From Marinicella marina (GTDB lineage: Bacteria > Pseudomonadota > Gammaproteobacteria > Xanthomonadales > Marinicellaceae): a DNA stretch of 64,000 bases. Below the pieces are notes generated by a model that ran no database searches, was not told the origin of the DNA, and saw only the letters and a program-made list of their open reading frames with translations. Each line of letters starts with the position of its first letter. Position 1 is the stretch's first letter. The stretch is taken from NCBI RefSeq assembly GCF_030065545.1, contig NZ_JASJNC010000004.1, positions 1 through 64,000 on the forward strand. The letters run 5' to 3'. Shown one piece after another: positions 45,936-50,309 of the stretch. The position numbers and the translations under genes were made by a program.

Positions 45936-46030
45936 TTCAACCAGCTATCGCAGCCAGGTAACAAAGCAGTGATCAGAACTCTTTTTATTGTGTTGACAGG
46001 CCAGCTTGGCTAAATACCGTGAGCGAAAAA

Positions 46031-46071
46031 TCCTGAGGCCTATAGAAACCATTACTGTTATGGCCTCAGGA
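46031..46071. terminator. Strong inverted repeat between fabI and convergent lipoprotein gene
   Basis: TCCTGAGGCC (46031-46040) pairs perfectly with GGCCTCAGGA (46062-46071), with a 21-nt loop. On the minus strand TTTTT follows (complement of 46026-46030), fitting termination of the lipoprotein gene. On the plus strand the T-rich flank is weaker, so use by fabI is possible but uncertain. Confidence 0.65.
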
Positions 46072-46102
46072 CATCTGTTTAAATCACCAAAGATCTTATG
46101 TA

Positions 46103-46495
46103 CTAGTTGTTTGAAACATCAACGATTTCGTTGCATTGTCCTCGAAAATACATGGTTCCTCCTTCTGAGTAGCGATCCACCTCCATAAAGCCTTCGGTAC
46201 AAAAACCATCTTTCTCCATCACCCTCTGGATTATATGCTTCAGATTTTGTTTATTATCCATTCTGCTGCGTCTCTTTTTATCATTGCGAGAAGCAGAGCC
46301 GTCTCGTAAATCAGGACGTTGTTTTGATCTTTTTCTGGCCTCTCCACCTCCGGCTGGCATCATCACTTGAAATTGTTTTAGGCCGCTGGCAGTGATGTTA
46401 GTGGTGATTTTGGGCTCAGGCCGGGATGGTTTTGACTGGCTACAAGCGGTGGTAGAAATCATTAATAAAACGAATAATAAAGGTTGGTATGACAT
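46103..46495 (-). CDS. Small hypothetical lipoprotein
   Basis: This 130-residue protein has a lipobox at Cys18 (LLMISTTAC) and a GGAG site 7 nt upstream. The middle is Arg/Lys-rich and disordered (EARKRSKQRPDLRDGSASRN). The C-terminal 55 residues look folded, with two Cys (GFCTEGFMEVDRYSEGG and GQCNEIVDV). I do not recognise the family. It is convergent with fabI. Confidence 0.7.
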   Translation of the reverse strand: MSYQPLLFVLLMISTTACSQSKPSRPEPKITTNITASGLKQFQVMMPAGGGEARKRSKQRPDLRDGSASRNDKKRRSRMDNKQNLKHIIQRVMEKDGFCTEGFMEVDRYSEGGTMYFRGQCNEIVDVSNN

Positions 46496-46601
46496 GTGTA
46501 AGCTCCAAAAAATTAAAGCTTAGCCGATGATTTTGCAAACAATAAGAAAGTTTTGTTAATTAAACGTTGCTCGAAAGTGGTATTAAATCAAACTAAATAT
46601 A

Positions 46602-46760
46602 TCAGCGCCAAACCAGAATACACTTTTGATTGAAGCGCAGTAATTTCAACAAGCTTTTATACCTTGTTGGGTTATTGTCTTTTATTTGACGCAATTCACG
46701 CTTGATACGCCGCCGTTCTTGGTACAAGTGTTTGATGGTGTTGAGTCTGGTTTCAGTCAA
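46602..46760 (-). CDS. Doubtful small basic reading frame
   Basis: This is a 52-codon frame from a TTG at 46760, with a basic helical product (YQERRRIKRELRQIKD). The frame stays open upstream to 46937, but that part overlaps the basic gene at 46834-47004 in another frame and looks non-coding. No ribosome binding site is seen, and it lies just after a strong terminator. It could be a remnant or chance frame. Confidence 0.22.
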   Translation of the reverse strand: MTETRLNTIKHLYQERRRIKRELRQIKDNNPTRYKSLLKLLRFNQKCILVWR

Positions 46761-46833
46761 GGTTATGGGTAACTTTTGATTGAGAAGAATTCTAGAAAAT
46801 TTCAGATAAAATTTGTGTGAGTAAATGACAGTT

Positions 46834-47004
46834 TCAACACAATAAAAAAGAGCCGAATTGCTCGGCTCTGATTTTACGTTTAAAGGCTTGTTTGTCCTTT
46901 TGTCGTTTGGCTTTATTGGACTTGACGTGGGCGCCACCTTTTTTCATGATAGCCGCTTTAGCAACCCAATTCCGCCGCCCATGACTTTTTAATTTGTCAC
47001 TCAT
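46834..47004 (-). CDS. 56-residue very basic protein whose reading frame contains a terminator; candidate ribosome-rescue factor
   Basis: The minus strand from ATG 47004 encodes 56 residues to a TGA at 46836-46834. The product begins MSDKLKSHGRRNWVAKAA and has about 16 Lys/Arg before a hydrophobic end, FGSFLLC. CCAGGAG lies 7 nt upstream of the ATG, and a perfect TATAAT is seen at 47036-47031. An intrinsic terminator (46869-46844) sits inside the frame and should stop most transcripts before the stop codon. Genes for ArfA and BrfA use this design: non-stop mRNA is tagged by tmRNA normally, and the active truncated protein accumulates only when tmRNA is limiting. The ArfA core (KGKGSY) is not visible, so homology is not claimed. 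The alternative is a small RNA-binding or ribosome-associated protein with an accidental terminator overlap. Confidence 0.65.
   Translation of the reverse strand: MSDKLKSHGRRNWVAKAAIMKKGGAHVKSNKAKRQKDKQAFKRKIRAEQFGSFLLC
46844..46869 (-). terminator. Intrinsic terminator inside the 56-codon gene
   Basis: On the minus strand AGAGCCGA (46869-46862) pairs perfectly with TCGGCTCT (46856-46849) around GCAAT, and the T-run extends to 46844. The stop codon of the gene lies at 46836-46834, beyond the T-run. The opposite strand has only a weak T-run, so the signal is directed against the minus-strand gene. Confidence 0.85.
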
Positions 47005-47036
47005 ACAGCGCTCCTGGTTGAAAGCGCTGTATTATA
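47005..47036 (-). promoter_or_regulatory. Promoter -10 box and perfect 8-bp inverted repeat before the 56-codon gene
   Basis: On the minus strand TATAAT (47036-47031) is followed at once by ACAGCGCT (47030-47023), a 10-nt loop and AGCGCTGT (47012-47005), which abuts the ATG. The Shine-Dalgarno AGGAG lies at 47015-47011, partly in the second arm. The repeat could be an operator at the transcription start, or an RNA hairpin limiting translation in read-through transcripts from the upstream protease gene. The -35 is poor. Confidence 0.5.
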
Positions 47037-47063
47037 ACAAACTATTAATTAATCACAGCTGAA

Positions 47064-50000
47064 TCAAAACTCAGTTGGCGCTGGTGGTGATTTGATCAAT
47101 TTTCTTGGGTTTTCTTGCAAGTCTTTTAACAGTTCCTCAACACCCCTTTCTAGCGATGGATCACGACCTGCTGCGACCAGCTCAGGACGATCGATGACTT
47201 CAATGTCAGGTGTCACACCTTCATTTTCTACTGCCCAGTTACCTTCGGTATCCATAAAGCGGAAAGTAGAGGCCAAAATAGAGCCGCCATCGGCCAAGGA
47301 TGGGTTGCCACTGATACCAATCAGTCCACCCCAGGTGCGGGTGCCGATGATCTTACCCAGACCTGCCTTGCGGAAATAATACGGTAGCGCATCACCACCT
47401 GAACTTGATTGGCCATTGGTTAACATCACTTTAGGACCATCATGGGCGATCAATGGGGTGGCATTGCTGTCTAAGTCCAAACCGCGGCGTTTCCAATAGT
47501 TCATAGTGGTGCGTGATAGGATTTCTATCATGCGATCTGGAATGAAGCCACCACCGTTATAACGGTCATCAATAATCAGCGCGTCTTTGTTGATCTGTGG
47601 CAGCAGTTGTTTGAATAATTCACGGTTACCATCAACTGCAGTATTGGGCAAATGCACATAACCTATTCTGCCGTCAGACAATTTATCCACCATGGCACGT
47701 CTTGATTCAACCCAATTAAAATAACGCAATTGGCTCTCAGATGCGATGGGCTTAACGTGTACTTGTCTTGAGCCTTTGCTTTGGGCTTTGTTGTTGATAT
47801 CTATGCTGACTGTTCTGCCGACGGTGTGTTCTAACAACTGATAAATGTTGGCCACATTTTTAGTGCTTTTACCATTGATGGCGATTATGAAATCCCCTAC
47901 TTCGGCGTTGACGCCAGCTTCGGTCAATGGTGAGCGTCTATTGGGCGTCCAGTTTTCACCTTTGAAAATGTGGGTTATTTCAAAATAACCACTCTTATGC
48001 TTTTTGAATTCAGCCCCCAACAAACCGTTTTGCTGTCTTTTTACAGTCGGTTGATCTCCAGAGTTAACATAGATATGACCTGCATTCATTTCACCTGCAA
48101 TCTCACCAAACACATAATCCAAGTCGGTGCGGTGGGTAGCCGCTTTGGCCAGTGGCAAGTACTTATCGTGTATAGCCTGCCAATCCATGCCATGCATGCC
48201 TGGATCATAGAACCAGTCACGTAATATGCGCCATGCATCAGTATACATTTGACGCCACTCGGTGGTTGGATCAATCTTCAAAGTGAGGTTCTTCAGATCC
48301 AAGTGTCGATCTTTTAGCTTTTGTTCTGCTTTGGCTTCAATTACCGCATATTTGCCTTGTTTCTGCACCAGCATGTGTTTTCCATCGGCACTCAATAGGT
48401 AATTTCCAGAATCCGCCAAGACTGTTTTTGGTGCCTCATCTTTGCTCAGGTCAATCATTTTGATGGCATTCCCGTTGGCACCGTTTTCAACCACAAAAAC
48501 AGCATCACCGTTGGTTTGGATGTTGTTATAATTACTGGCATTGCCCGGCAAAGCCCTGACCCTTTGATTGAAACCTTCTACCTGCAAATTAACCACAACC
48601 GTTTCAGCTGCATCCTCATCTTCTTTTTCGTTGGATGTTGTGATGCCATCATCTTCAAATGGATAAAGCGCTGGTACAGCATCATTCAGAGGCGCGGCAT
48701 ATACGCGAGTGGCCTGATGGTAAAGGTAATTGAACTCATAACTACTGAAGGACAAATTGTAATCACGGTTGGATAAAAAGAACAAATAATGTCCATTGGG
48801 GTCGAATACGGGAGAGAAATCGTTGAATGCCTTACTGGTTAATCGCTTGACTGAACCGTCTTTGAAACCGTAGACAAAAATAGAACTGAAACCACTGACT
48901 TCTGTTTTGGTGTAGACCAGCCACTGACTGTCTGGCGACCATGAAAAATCATCTATGTCATTGCGGGTTGAACGGTCAAGTTTTCGGATTTTTTTACTCT
49001 TAACATCAACACTCCAAAGGGTTTGATTGGTGTCACTGTACGCAATCTTTTTGCTGTCAGGTGACCACACAGGAGGGTAACGCCAAACACCACCATCATC
49101 GGTTATTTGTGTGACATTGCCCGATTTTACATCTTGGACATACACTTCATATTCACCCGTGGCATCGCTCAAATAAGCAATGTGTGAGCCATTTGGTGAC
49201 CAAGCCACATCAATCTCACGGGCACTGGGGGTATTGCTGATGTTTCTTATTTCACCTTTTTGGGCAGGCACAGAGAATACTTCGCCACGGGCCGCAATTG
49301 CTACCCTTTTGCCCTCAGGAGAAATCGCCATAGAGTCGATGTAGTCTTTAACATTTTTACGTTCAGCAAGAAGATTTTCGGCGTTTGCTGTGATTTGTAT
49401 AGATAATTGTTCGGTGGTCGATGAAACAGGATCAAAGCGCCACAAATGACCACCGTTCTCATAAACAATGGCGGCTGGGCCAGCAGAAGGCCACAAGGCA
49501 TCAAATTGGTCATGATGAGTGACTTTTTGCGGTTCGCCATCTGCCACATATTTGTACAGATTCAAGTGATAATCACGGTCACTGATGAAGTAGATGTCAT
49601 CTCCAATCCATACGGGTTGGTGATCTGTCGCTGCATGGGTGGTTATTCGTTGGCTGCTGTTTTCTTGCAAATCATAAATCCAAACATCCTGTGCACGACC
49701 GCCCCGGTAACGTTTCCAAGTTCTGAACTCTCGATCAATGGGGGTATATACATATTTATTGCCATCTGGTGACAGCATGCCACCACCTGTTTCTGGCACA
49801 GCCAAAGGTGCTTCCATGCCGCCATCGGCAGGAACCAAATAAGGTTGTCCGGTTCGTACACCCCATGGCAGGCGGTTGGCTTTGACCAATATGTGCTTGT
49901 TATCAGGTGTCCAATCTAAGATGCGGTAATCAAAACCGCCACGTGGTGGCATCGGTCCGACATCATTATACCAGGTCAGTTGTTGCAGGTTACTGCCGTC

Positions 50001-50309
50001 CATATCCATCACAAAAACCTGTCTTGAGCCGGTGTACTCGGCGGAGAATGCGATGCGCTTACCATCTCTTGAAAACTTTGGAAATGCCTCGAAACCATCG
50101 AATGATGTCAAACGCTTGGCCTCACCGCTTTTGATGTTGGCAGTATAAATGTCACCAGCGTAAACAAAAGTCACGTGATCTTGATGTATGTCTGCGTAAC
50201 GCAACAACTTGGTGGCATCATTGGCACTGACCGATAAAGCAATAACGCTGAAAAAAGTAAGCAACAGCCACTGACTGCTGGATTGTTTGAAATTGAACAT
50301 TGATCGCAT
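47064..50309 (-). CDS. Tricorn-like S41 peptidase with TolB-type propeller and PDZ domain
   Basis: This 1081-residue exported protein has a signal peptide (about 1-29, ending SVSAND). A WD40/TolB-like beta-propeller region (about 35-520) has repeated SPDSKKIAYSD- and SRDGKRIAFSA-type motifs. The C-terminal protease part combines a helical core domain, a PDZ domain (about 765-850) and an S41 catalytic domain with the nucleophile Ser in GQSSSGGDA. This is the layout of tricorn protease homologues, which degrade peptides; here it is likely periplasmic. GGAG lies 7 nt before the ATG at 50309. The 56-codon basic gene follows 59 nt downstream. Confidence 0.9.
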   Translation of the reverse strand: MRSMFNFKQSSSQWLLLTFFSVIALSVSANDATKLLRYADIHQDHVTFVYAGDIYTANIKSGEAKRLTSFDGFEAFPKFSRDGKRIAFSAEYTGSRQVFVMDMDGSNLQQLTWYNDVGPMPPRGGFDYRILDWTPDNKHILVKANRLPWGVRTGQPYLVPADGGMEAPLAVPETGGGMLSPDGNKYVYTPIDREFRTWKRYRGGRAQDVWIYDLQENSSQRITTHAATDHQPVWIGDDIYFISDRDYHLNLYKYVADGEPQKVTHHDQFDALWPSAGPAAIVYENGGHLWRFDPVSSTTEQLSIQITANAENLLAERKNVKDYIDSMAISPEGKRVAIAARGEVFSVPAQKGEIRNISNTPSAREIDVAWSPNGSHIAYLSDATGEYEVYVQDVKSGNVTQITDDGGVWRYPPVWSPDSKKIAYSDTNQTLWSVDVKSKKIRKLDRSTRNDIDDFSWSPDSQWLVYTKTEVSGFSSIFVYGFKDGSVKRLTSKAFNDFSPVFDPNGHYLFFLSNRDYNLSFSSYEFNYLYHQATRVYAAPLNDAVPALYPFEDDGITTSNEKEDEDAAETVVVNLQVEGFNQRVRALPGNASNYNNIQTNGDAVFVVENGANGNAIKMIDLSKDEAPKTVLADSGNYLLSADGKHMLVQKQGKYAVIEAKAEQKLKDRHLDLKNLTLKIDPTTEWRQMYTDAWRILRDWFYDPGMHGMDWQAIHDKYLPLAKAATHRTDLDYVFGEIAGEMNAGHIYVNSGDQPTVKRQQNGLLGAEFKKHKSGYFEITHIFKGENWTPNRRSPLTEAGVNAEVGDFIIAINGKSTKNVANIYQLLEHTVGRTVSIDINNKAQSKGSRQVHVKPIASESQLRYFNWVESRRAMVDKLSDGRIGYVHLPNTAVDGNRELFKQLLPQINKDALIIDDRYNGGGFIPDRMIEILSRTTMNYWKRRGLDLDSNATPLIAHDGPKVMLTNGQSSSGGDALPYYFRKAGLGKIIGTRTWGGLIGISGNPSLADGGSILASTFRFMDTEGNWAVENEGVTPDIEVIDRPELVAAGRDPSLERGVEELLKDLQENPRKLIKSPPAPTEF

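Follow-up and report, generated by a model that had tools for sequence, protein, structure and literature searches.

The minus-strand gene at 47004-46834 of the window (the whole 64-kb stretch of DNA that was analysed) probably specifies a backup factor for ribosome rescue, a small basic protein that belongs to a new family and is made from a non-stop mRNA; we give this reading a probability of about three in four. It is supported by the separate occurrence of ArfA and the new gene across 351 genomes and by a link to the RNA ligase RtcB in relatives; the function itself is inferred. The features of the locus, with the evidence for each in brackets, are as follows.

47031..47036, minus strand: TATAAT, a possible -10 box, no good -35 box seen (sequence)
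47011..47015, minus strand: Shine-Dalgarno sequence AGGAG (sequence)
46834..47004, minus strand: non-stop gene, a 56-codon frame for the basic protein MSDKLKSHGRRNWVAKAAIMKKGGAHVKSNKAKRQKDKQAFKRKIRAEQFGSFLLC (sequence, homologues, dN/dS)
46849..46869, minus strand: intrinsic terminator hairpin inside the frame, 8-bp perfect stem, 5-nt loop (folding, scan, covariation)
46844..46848, minus strand: five T after the stem, predicted 3' end of the mRNA, the end position being deduced (sequence)
46834..46843, minus strand: bases past the terminator including TGA, the tail unconserved among relatives (sequence comparison)

The frame and its internal terminator

Homologues were found in 20 of the 33 genomes of the GTDB family, the own genome included (protein search, E 0.01). 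A broader profile at E 1 added matches in three further genomes (E 0.08-0.25), which cross stop codons and were left out of the count of 20. The core of the 20 family-level homologues has 11 invariant positions; taken by codon position, the differences amount to 0.26, 0.19 and 0.50, and dN/dS is 0.03-0.27 in ten pairs, the eleventh pair being identical. Because of these dN/dS values the 56-codon frame is read as protein coding and under purifying selection, and the outcome named as refuting the original prediction, a frame not conserved in relatives, did not occur in the 20 genomes. One genome (G024) carries a degenerate second copy of the gene (L029), about 3.4 kb from the first, with a stop codon before its hairpin.

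Between the TATAAT and the start codon there are 26 nt, and no -35 box can be recognised; the promoter scan gave no full sigma-70 site around it (47036-47031). An 8-bp perfect inverted repeat, ACAGCGCT/AGCGCTGT at 47005-47030, flanks the Shine-Dalgarno sequence, touches the start codon and could form a fold covering the ribosome binding site; its upstream arm was not seen in two relatives, L012 and L013. The gene upstream on the same strand (47064-50309) resembles a tricorn/S41-type protease, judging from its sequence.

The hairpin reads AGAGCCGA-gcaat-TCGGCTCT at 46869-46849 and is followed by TTTTT (46848-46844), ATTGTGT and TGA, the distance from stem to TGA being 12 nt. The terminator scan counts nine stem pairs, a G-T pair included, as against the eight perfect ones. 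The hairpin alone folds at -12.4 kcal/mol, and with its flanks at -15.7 kcal/mol (z -3.8). Sequence and folding thus agree with the original prediction of an 8-bp perfect terminator stem and a T-run lying wholly inside the frame, and an mRNA ending at the T-run is predicted to give a product of about 53 residues. The frame is open through the hairpin in all 20 GTDB-family genomes that have the gene, the own genome included, and the stop codon follows 10 to 116 nt past the stem (19 members measured); the check for homologues that stop before the hairpin, proposed with the original prediction, turned up none in this family save the broken second copy L029.

Pairing was also examined in 19 aligned hairpins (alignment A3, from which L016 was excluded owing to a loop insert, and in which row L025 sits one column out of register and was scored partly unpaired). 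The hairpin covaries: at six of the eight pairs some sequence has both bases changed. Of the alignment cells, 96.7% are paired, compared with 86.7% in shuffles, and sliding the hairpin partner lowers pairing to 64% or less. One of five measures, that of further pair types, was not above the shuffles. As background, the 213 ORFs of at least 100 aa from the window together with 38 related loci were scanned: a comparable terminator falls entirely inside the final 75 nt before the stop in 1 of them, and 17 terminators are located in the 75 nt following a stop.

Past the hairpin, the 20 family-level genomes encode tails of 3 to 39 residues. Where they have at least eight residues (14 of the 20), tails score 0.17 against one another and likewise 0.17 against shuffled tails; the cores score 0.64. 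The short hydrophobic end finishing in Cys, to which the original prediction had drawn attention, is accordingly not a conserved feature, and since the tail is unconserved here the parallel once drawn with the hydrophobic tail of ArfA finds no support.

A wider family and its hairpins

The core motif of the family is RNxxAxxPLMRKGGVHxKSxKAKR. A scan of named genomes yielded 38 loci, including Reinekea, Saccharophagus, Cellvibrio, Porticoccus, Marinomonas and Thiodiazotropha, and also a Hahella bin, a Neisseriaceae bin and Burkholderia. With a 37-row profile the family was found in 24 of 274 genomes of the class, one of them barely (E 0.01), in 9 of 79 genomes of a second order (E 0.001), and in 4 of 398 genomes sampled across the phylum, the own genome included and one lying outside the class (E 1e-5). 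On these matches the family is spread through the Gammaproteobacteria. A strong member from another class of the phylum (L166, E 1.7e-18), perhaps present there by transfer or contamination, has no significant hairpin and no rtcB in the surrounding sequence examined.

Searches against existing models gave no convincing match: the window protein had no Pfam or NCBIfam match at E 5; eight homologues gave only matches far below the cut-offs of these databases (best Pfam E 0.02); PHROGs returned three chance-level matches (best E 0.13); PADLOC had no match for three proteins; and Rfam at gathering thresholds had none on 46000-48000. Members were likewise not found among phages (window protein as query), plasmids (Reinekea homologue as query) or viruses (alignment A1 as query). 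Tachylectin-2, the sole PDB sequence match (E 0.0012), was rejected, its score being a sum of weak repeats; kinship with KGG-repeat proteins, considered on account of the RKGG motif, was also set aside, the Pfam scans containing no such match. On these comparisons the protein is a member of a new family matched convincingly by none of these models, ArfT having been compared by description only. Among the titles and abstract beginnings listed from the open-licence literature, neither the family nor an rtcB operon containing it is described; a 2024 survey of 15,259 genomes, in the part available, tabulates smpB, ssrA, arfB, arfA, smrB, rqcH and mutS2 (PMC11633108).

Hairpins were assessed across the wider family by folding the stretch from four codons past the conserved His to the stop (minimum 40 nt, maximum 160 nt; all 74 distinct members are long enough), with 100 dinucleotide shuffles of each stretch for comparison. 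In the final set, 52 of the 74 members have a hairpin before the stop with p at or below 0.05, counts that are not independent, the members being mutually related. In an earlier set the same threshold was reached by 16 of the 19 own-family members and by 33 of the other 52, with mean z of -3.2 and -2.9, respectively. Control ORFs (last 100 nt, 50 shuffles) gave a mean z of -0.1, with z below -1.65 in 6 of 75; of 25 true arfA genes put through the same test as the family, 14 reached the threshold of p 0.05, and their mean z was -3.0 over the whole set.

The fold test and a strict terminator scan differ in places. The scan, run on 62 distinct members, placed terminators in frame in 24, weakly so in 6, after the stop in 3 and spanning it in 2, and found none in 27; overlooked were L016 and L023, where the loop is longer or a G-U pair occurs together with a weak U-run. 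L018, L083 and L084 fail the fold test yet have a strict in-frame terminator, the best local fold of L018 differing from its terminator (p 0.109). L016 has by sequence a long-loop hairpin in frame, with p 0.059 in the first fold set and no significance in the final one. L077, another member that fails the fold test, has its terminator located after the stop. L070 passes the fold test and may nevertheless fall outside the non-stop group, because its terminator spans the stop codon.

Terminator-type members include those of Reinekea, Cellvibrio and Marinomonas. Another type, represented by L058-L062 (three of them titled Thiodiazotropha), has long stems of 21-22 pairs without a U-run, which look like RNase III substrates; arfA is described as using both a terminator and an RNase III site (PMC6299226). 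In some of the 22 members that fail the fold test no in-frame hairpin is evident, and non-stop expression is for this reason judged not universal in the family. The in-frame terminator of the original prediction holds for its GTDB family, in 20 of 20 genomes with the gene, and seems not to extend to some members of the wider family.

That the terminator overlaps the end of the gene through mere genome compaction, with no regulatory meaning and with enough readthrough mRNA reaching the stop, would fit the 12 nt between stem and stop in the window and the 22 of 74 members that fail the hairpin test. We consider it highly improbable: the overlap is kept in every one of the 20 family genomes though the stop lies at such varied distances past the stem, the tails are unconserved, only one background ORF in 213 has such an overlap, and other clades have long stems without a U-run at the same place.

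Rescue genes and rtcB in the same genomes

The own genome has tmRNA, an ArfB and two RF1/RF2-like frames. Within the GTDB family ArfA (PF03889) was above its cut-off in 0 of 33 genomes, and matches below the cut-off in three of the 33 (E 0.02-0.04) were taken as chance. ArfB was above its cut-off in 10 of the 33; five genomes have both ArfB and the new gene, 15 the new gene only, five ArfB only and eight neither (four of these eight are less than 90% complete, but G031 is 99% complete). Mutual exclusion of the new gene and ArfB was considered and dropped, for the own family with a Fisher p of 0.13 and for the class sample with both genes in 10 of the 24 new-gene genomes.

Of the 274 genomes in the class sample, 3 have ArfA, 138 have ArfB and 24 have the new gene; of the 79 in the second order, 24 have ArfA and 9 the new gene, never together. 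No genome of the 351 has both, an exclusion that is statistically weak (hypergeometric P 0.031 in the order sample and 0.069 combined, uncorrected for descent). Within one genus ArfA is present in one species (G083) and the new gene in another (G222); the divergent ArfA of G083, a congener of G222, lies inside a long open frame (L095).

The neighbourhood of the gene was inspected at seven loci and then at all systematically. An rtcB gene lies nearby on the same strand in 40 of 74 members (1.5 to 3 kb examined for most). Its end is 17 to 327 nt upstream of the family gene in 27 members, it is about 1.0 to 1.2 kb upstream with a gene for a 311-aa protein between in 12, and it is downstream in a single case (L068), these distance counts using a slightly different grouping of members than the 40 of 74. 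The rtcB product of L052 matches Pfam PF01139 at 4.5e-129. In L098 and L101 the match is to the C-terminal part of rtcB only, despite more sequence being present; at L098:823-1272 an arfB lies directly upstream of the family member, followed by the match to the rtcB C-terminus.

The 311-aa gene, positioned between or beside rtcB and the family gene, is linked in 21 of 74 members (for example at L069:1996-2928 and L055:2032-2964; alignment A4 comprises 21 copies). Its product had no Pfam or PDB match and, for one copy, only a chance NCBIfam match (E 0.061); a structural model (pLDDT 87) has a weak likeness to GNAT acetyltransferases (Foldseek E 0.11 or worse).

Altogether rtcB and/or the 311-aa gene are linked in 44 of 74 members, with link and hairpin together in 31 of 74, and among the linked genes the family gene almost always comes last. 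Of the 19 distinct members in the own GTDB family, 11 have the link. No rtcB occurs within the 64-kb window around the window copy, and the near relatives L010, L012 and L013 have no link in the sequence examined; L011 has it. The family gene and rtcB are likely to form an operon in many relatives. The original prediction was silent on the rtcB neighbourhood of relatives and on the RNase III-like variants.

It could be argued that the gene is regulated by tmRNA through its non-stop mRNA and is not a rescue factor at all, serving for instance as an RNA- or ribosome-binding helper of RtcB repair, with failure of trans-translation as a signal only. The non-stop architecture and the rtcB link show regulation and context alone, and a basic helix would suit RNA binding. 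Still, we hold such a helper to be rather unlikely: to our knowledge ArfA and BrfA, the characterised genes of such architecture, are rescue factors, no genome was seen with both ArfA and the new gene, and the window retains the gene without rtcB nearby.

Proposed mechanism and comparison with known rescue systems

Non-stop arfA mRNAs were reportedly the subject of work by Schaub in 2012. For the preferred reading, a backup rescue factor, the following course of events is proposed. The mRNA would end at the internal terminator, as predicted, so that ribosomes would reach its 3' end without meeting a stop codon. With tmRNA-SmpB working, the product would be tagged and degraded; where trans-translation is overloaded or missing, an untagged product of about 53 residues would build up, both steps being modelled on ArfA and BrfA, the latter through its repression by trans-translation (PMC6881298). 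The basic C-terminal helix would then occupy the empty mRNA channel, and a release factor would free the nascent chain. The GGQ motif of the ArfB hydrolase domain and of PrfH is absent from the 56 residues, a separate ArfB being encoded elsewhere in the genome, and because of this absence RF1, RF2 or another hydrolase would have to be recruited. The AlphaFold model of the window protein (mean pLDDT 71) has a 26-residue C-terminal helix at residues 25-50, better supported and rich in Lys and Arg, which would be suited to the channel, and a short low-confidence helix at 13-21 over the conserved NxxA segment.

In relatives with rtcB, rescue and RNA repair would perhaps be deployed jointly. More tentatively, and as a possibility that we rate below even odds, the 31 members with both link and hairpin may constitute an operon for RNA repair and ribosome rescue that senses trans-translation. 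With the family gene last and a hairpin before its stop, the mRNA of the whole operon would be non-stop; upon failure of trans-translation the rescue peptide would accumulate and the RtcB-encoding mRNA would be spared, RNA repair thereby being linked to the state of tmRNA. Among 34 potential RtcB targets tmRNA is, according to the available part of a review, the one found most often (PMC10630183). If this were true, ribosome rescue would be tied to RNA repair outside the PrfH module, and tmRNA failure would control an RNA ligase.

The family was found through its non-stop architecture and provides candidates in many Gammaproteobacteria; in the class sample the new gene is present in 24 genomes and ArfA in 3. 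According to the available part of one review, more small rescue factors are expected, perhaps not identifiable by sequence similarity, and rescue systems are called promising antibiotic targets (PMC8012679), for which reason an overlooked backup would be relevant to antibiotics.

ArfA (E. coli YhdL, PF03889) resembles the new protein in being small and basic, and its gene in having, in many members, a hairpin inside the frame before the stop, with a similar fold-test signal. It differs in its KGKGS motif, which is missing in the new family, and in showing no profile relation to it; the new family has its own core motif and shares none of the 351 genomes with ArfA. The similar size, charge and non-stop architecture, and the Lys-Gly and His residues in the basic part of both, could suggest that the protein is a very divergent ArfA. 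This we regard as improbable: the window protein has no match to PF03889 at E 5 or less, and hhalign of the family against the ArfA alignment gave a probability of 0.4% and a score of 11.0; column shuffles cover this score (95% of them reach up to 13.3), and the reversed control scored higher (14.1). Search and profile comparison together uphold the earlier statement that the ArfA core motif is not recognisable and, of its two options, a new family or a very divergent one, favour a family of its own. A candidate bridge to ArfA, L091 (ARNLLHDHPLLKKG), which resembles ALLHDPLFRQR of E. coli, was discarded, the profile comparison having given no support.

BrfA (Bacillus subtilis YqkK) is like the new gene in having an intrinsic terminator in its coding region. 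About 62 of its 71 codons are reported to be made into protein, under repression by trans-translation, and it is described as confined to a subset of Bacillaceae (PMC6881298). A search of PDB chains with the profile of alignment A1 gave no BrfA chain at E 10 or less, the inclusion of BrfA among those chains being unconfirmed. ArfT (Francisella tularensis) is also a short rescue factor acting with a release factor; as described in the available part of PMC6299226 it differs from the new gene in having 40 aa and no terminator before its stop. It is elsewhere presented as a broad family (PMC6514570).

The RtcB2-PrfH module is like the rtcB-linked members in placing an RtcB RNA ligase beside a ribosome-rescue protein (PMC9223846; PMC6514570, section 8). 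PrfH is a release-factor homologue; the new protein, in contrast, is a basic peptide of 56 aa that lacks GGQ. A single neighbouring RtcB was scanned, that of L052, and it scored 145 bits against TIGR03073 (release_rtcB), whose cut-off is 271.8 bits. Charged proteins without homologues are themselves described beside PrfH-RtcB in the available text of PMC6514570, section 8.
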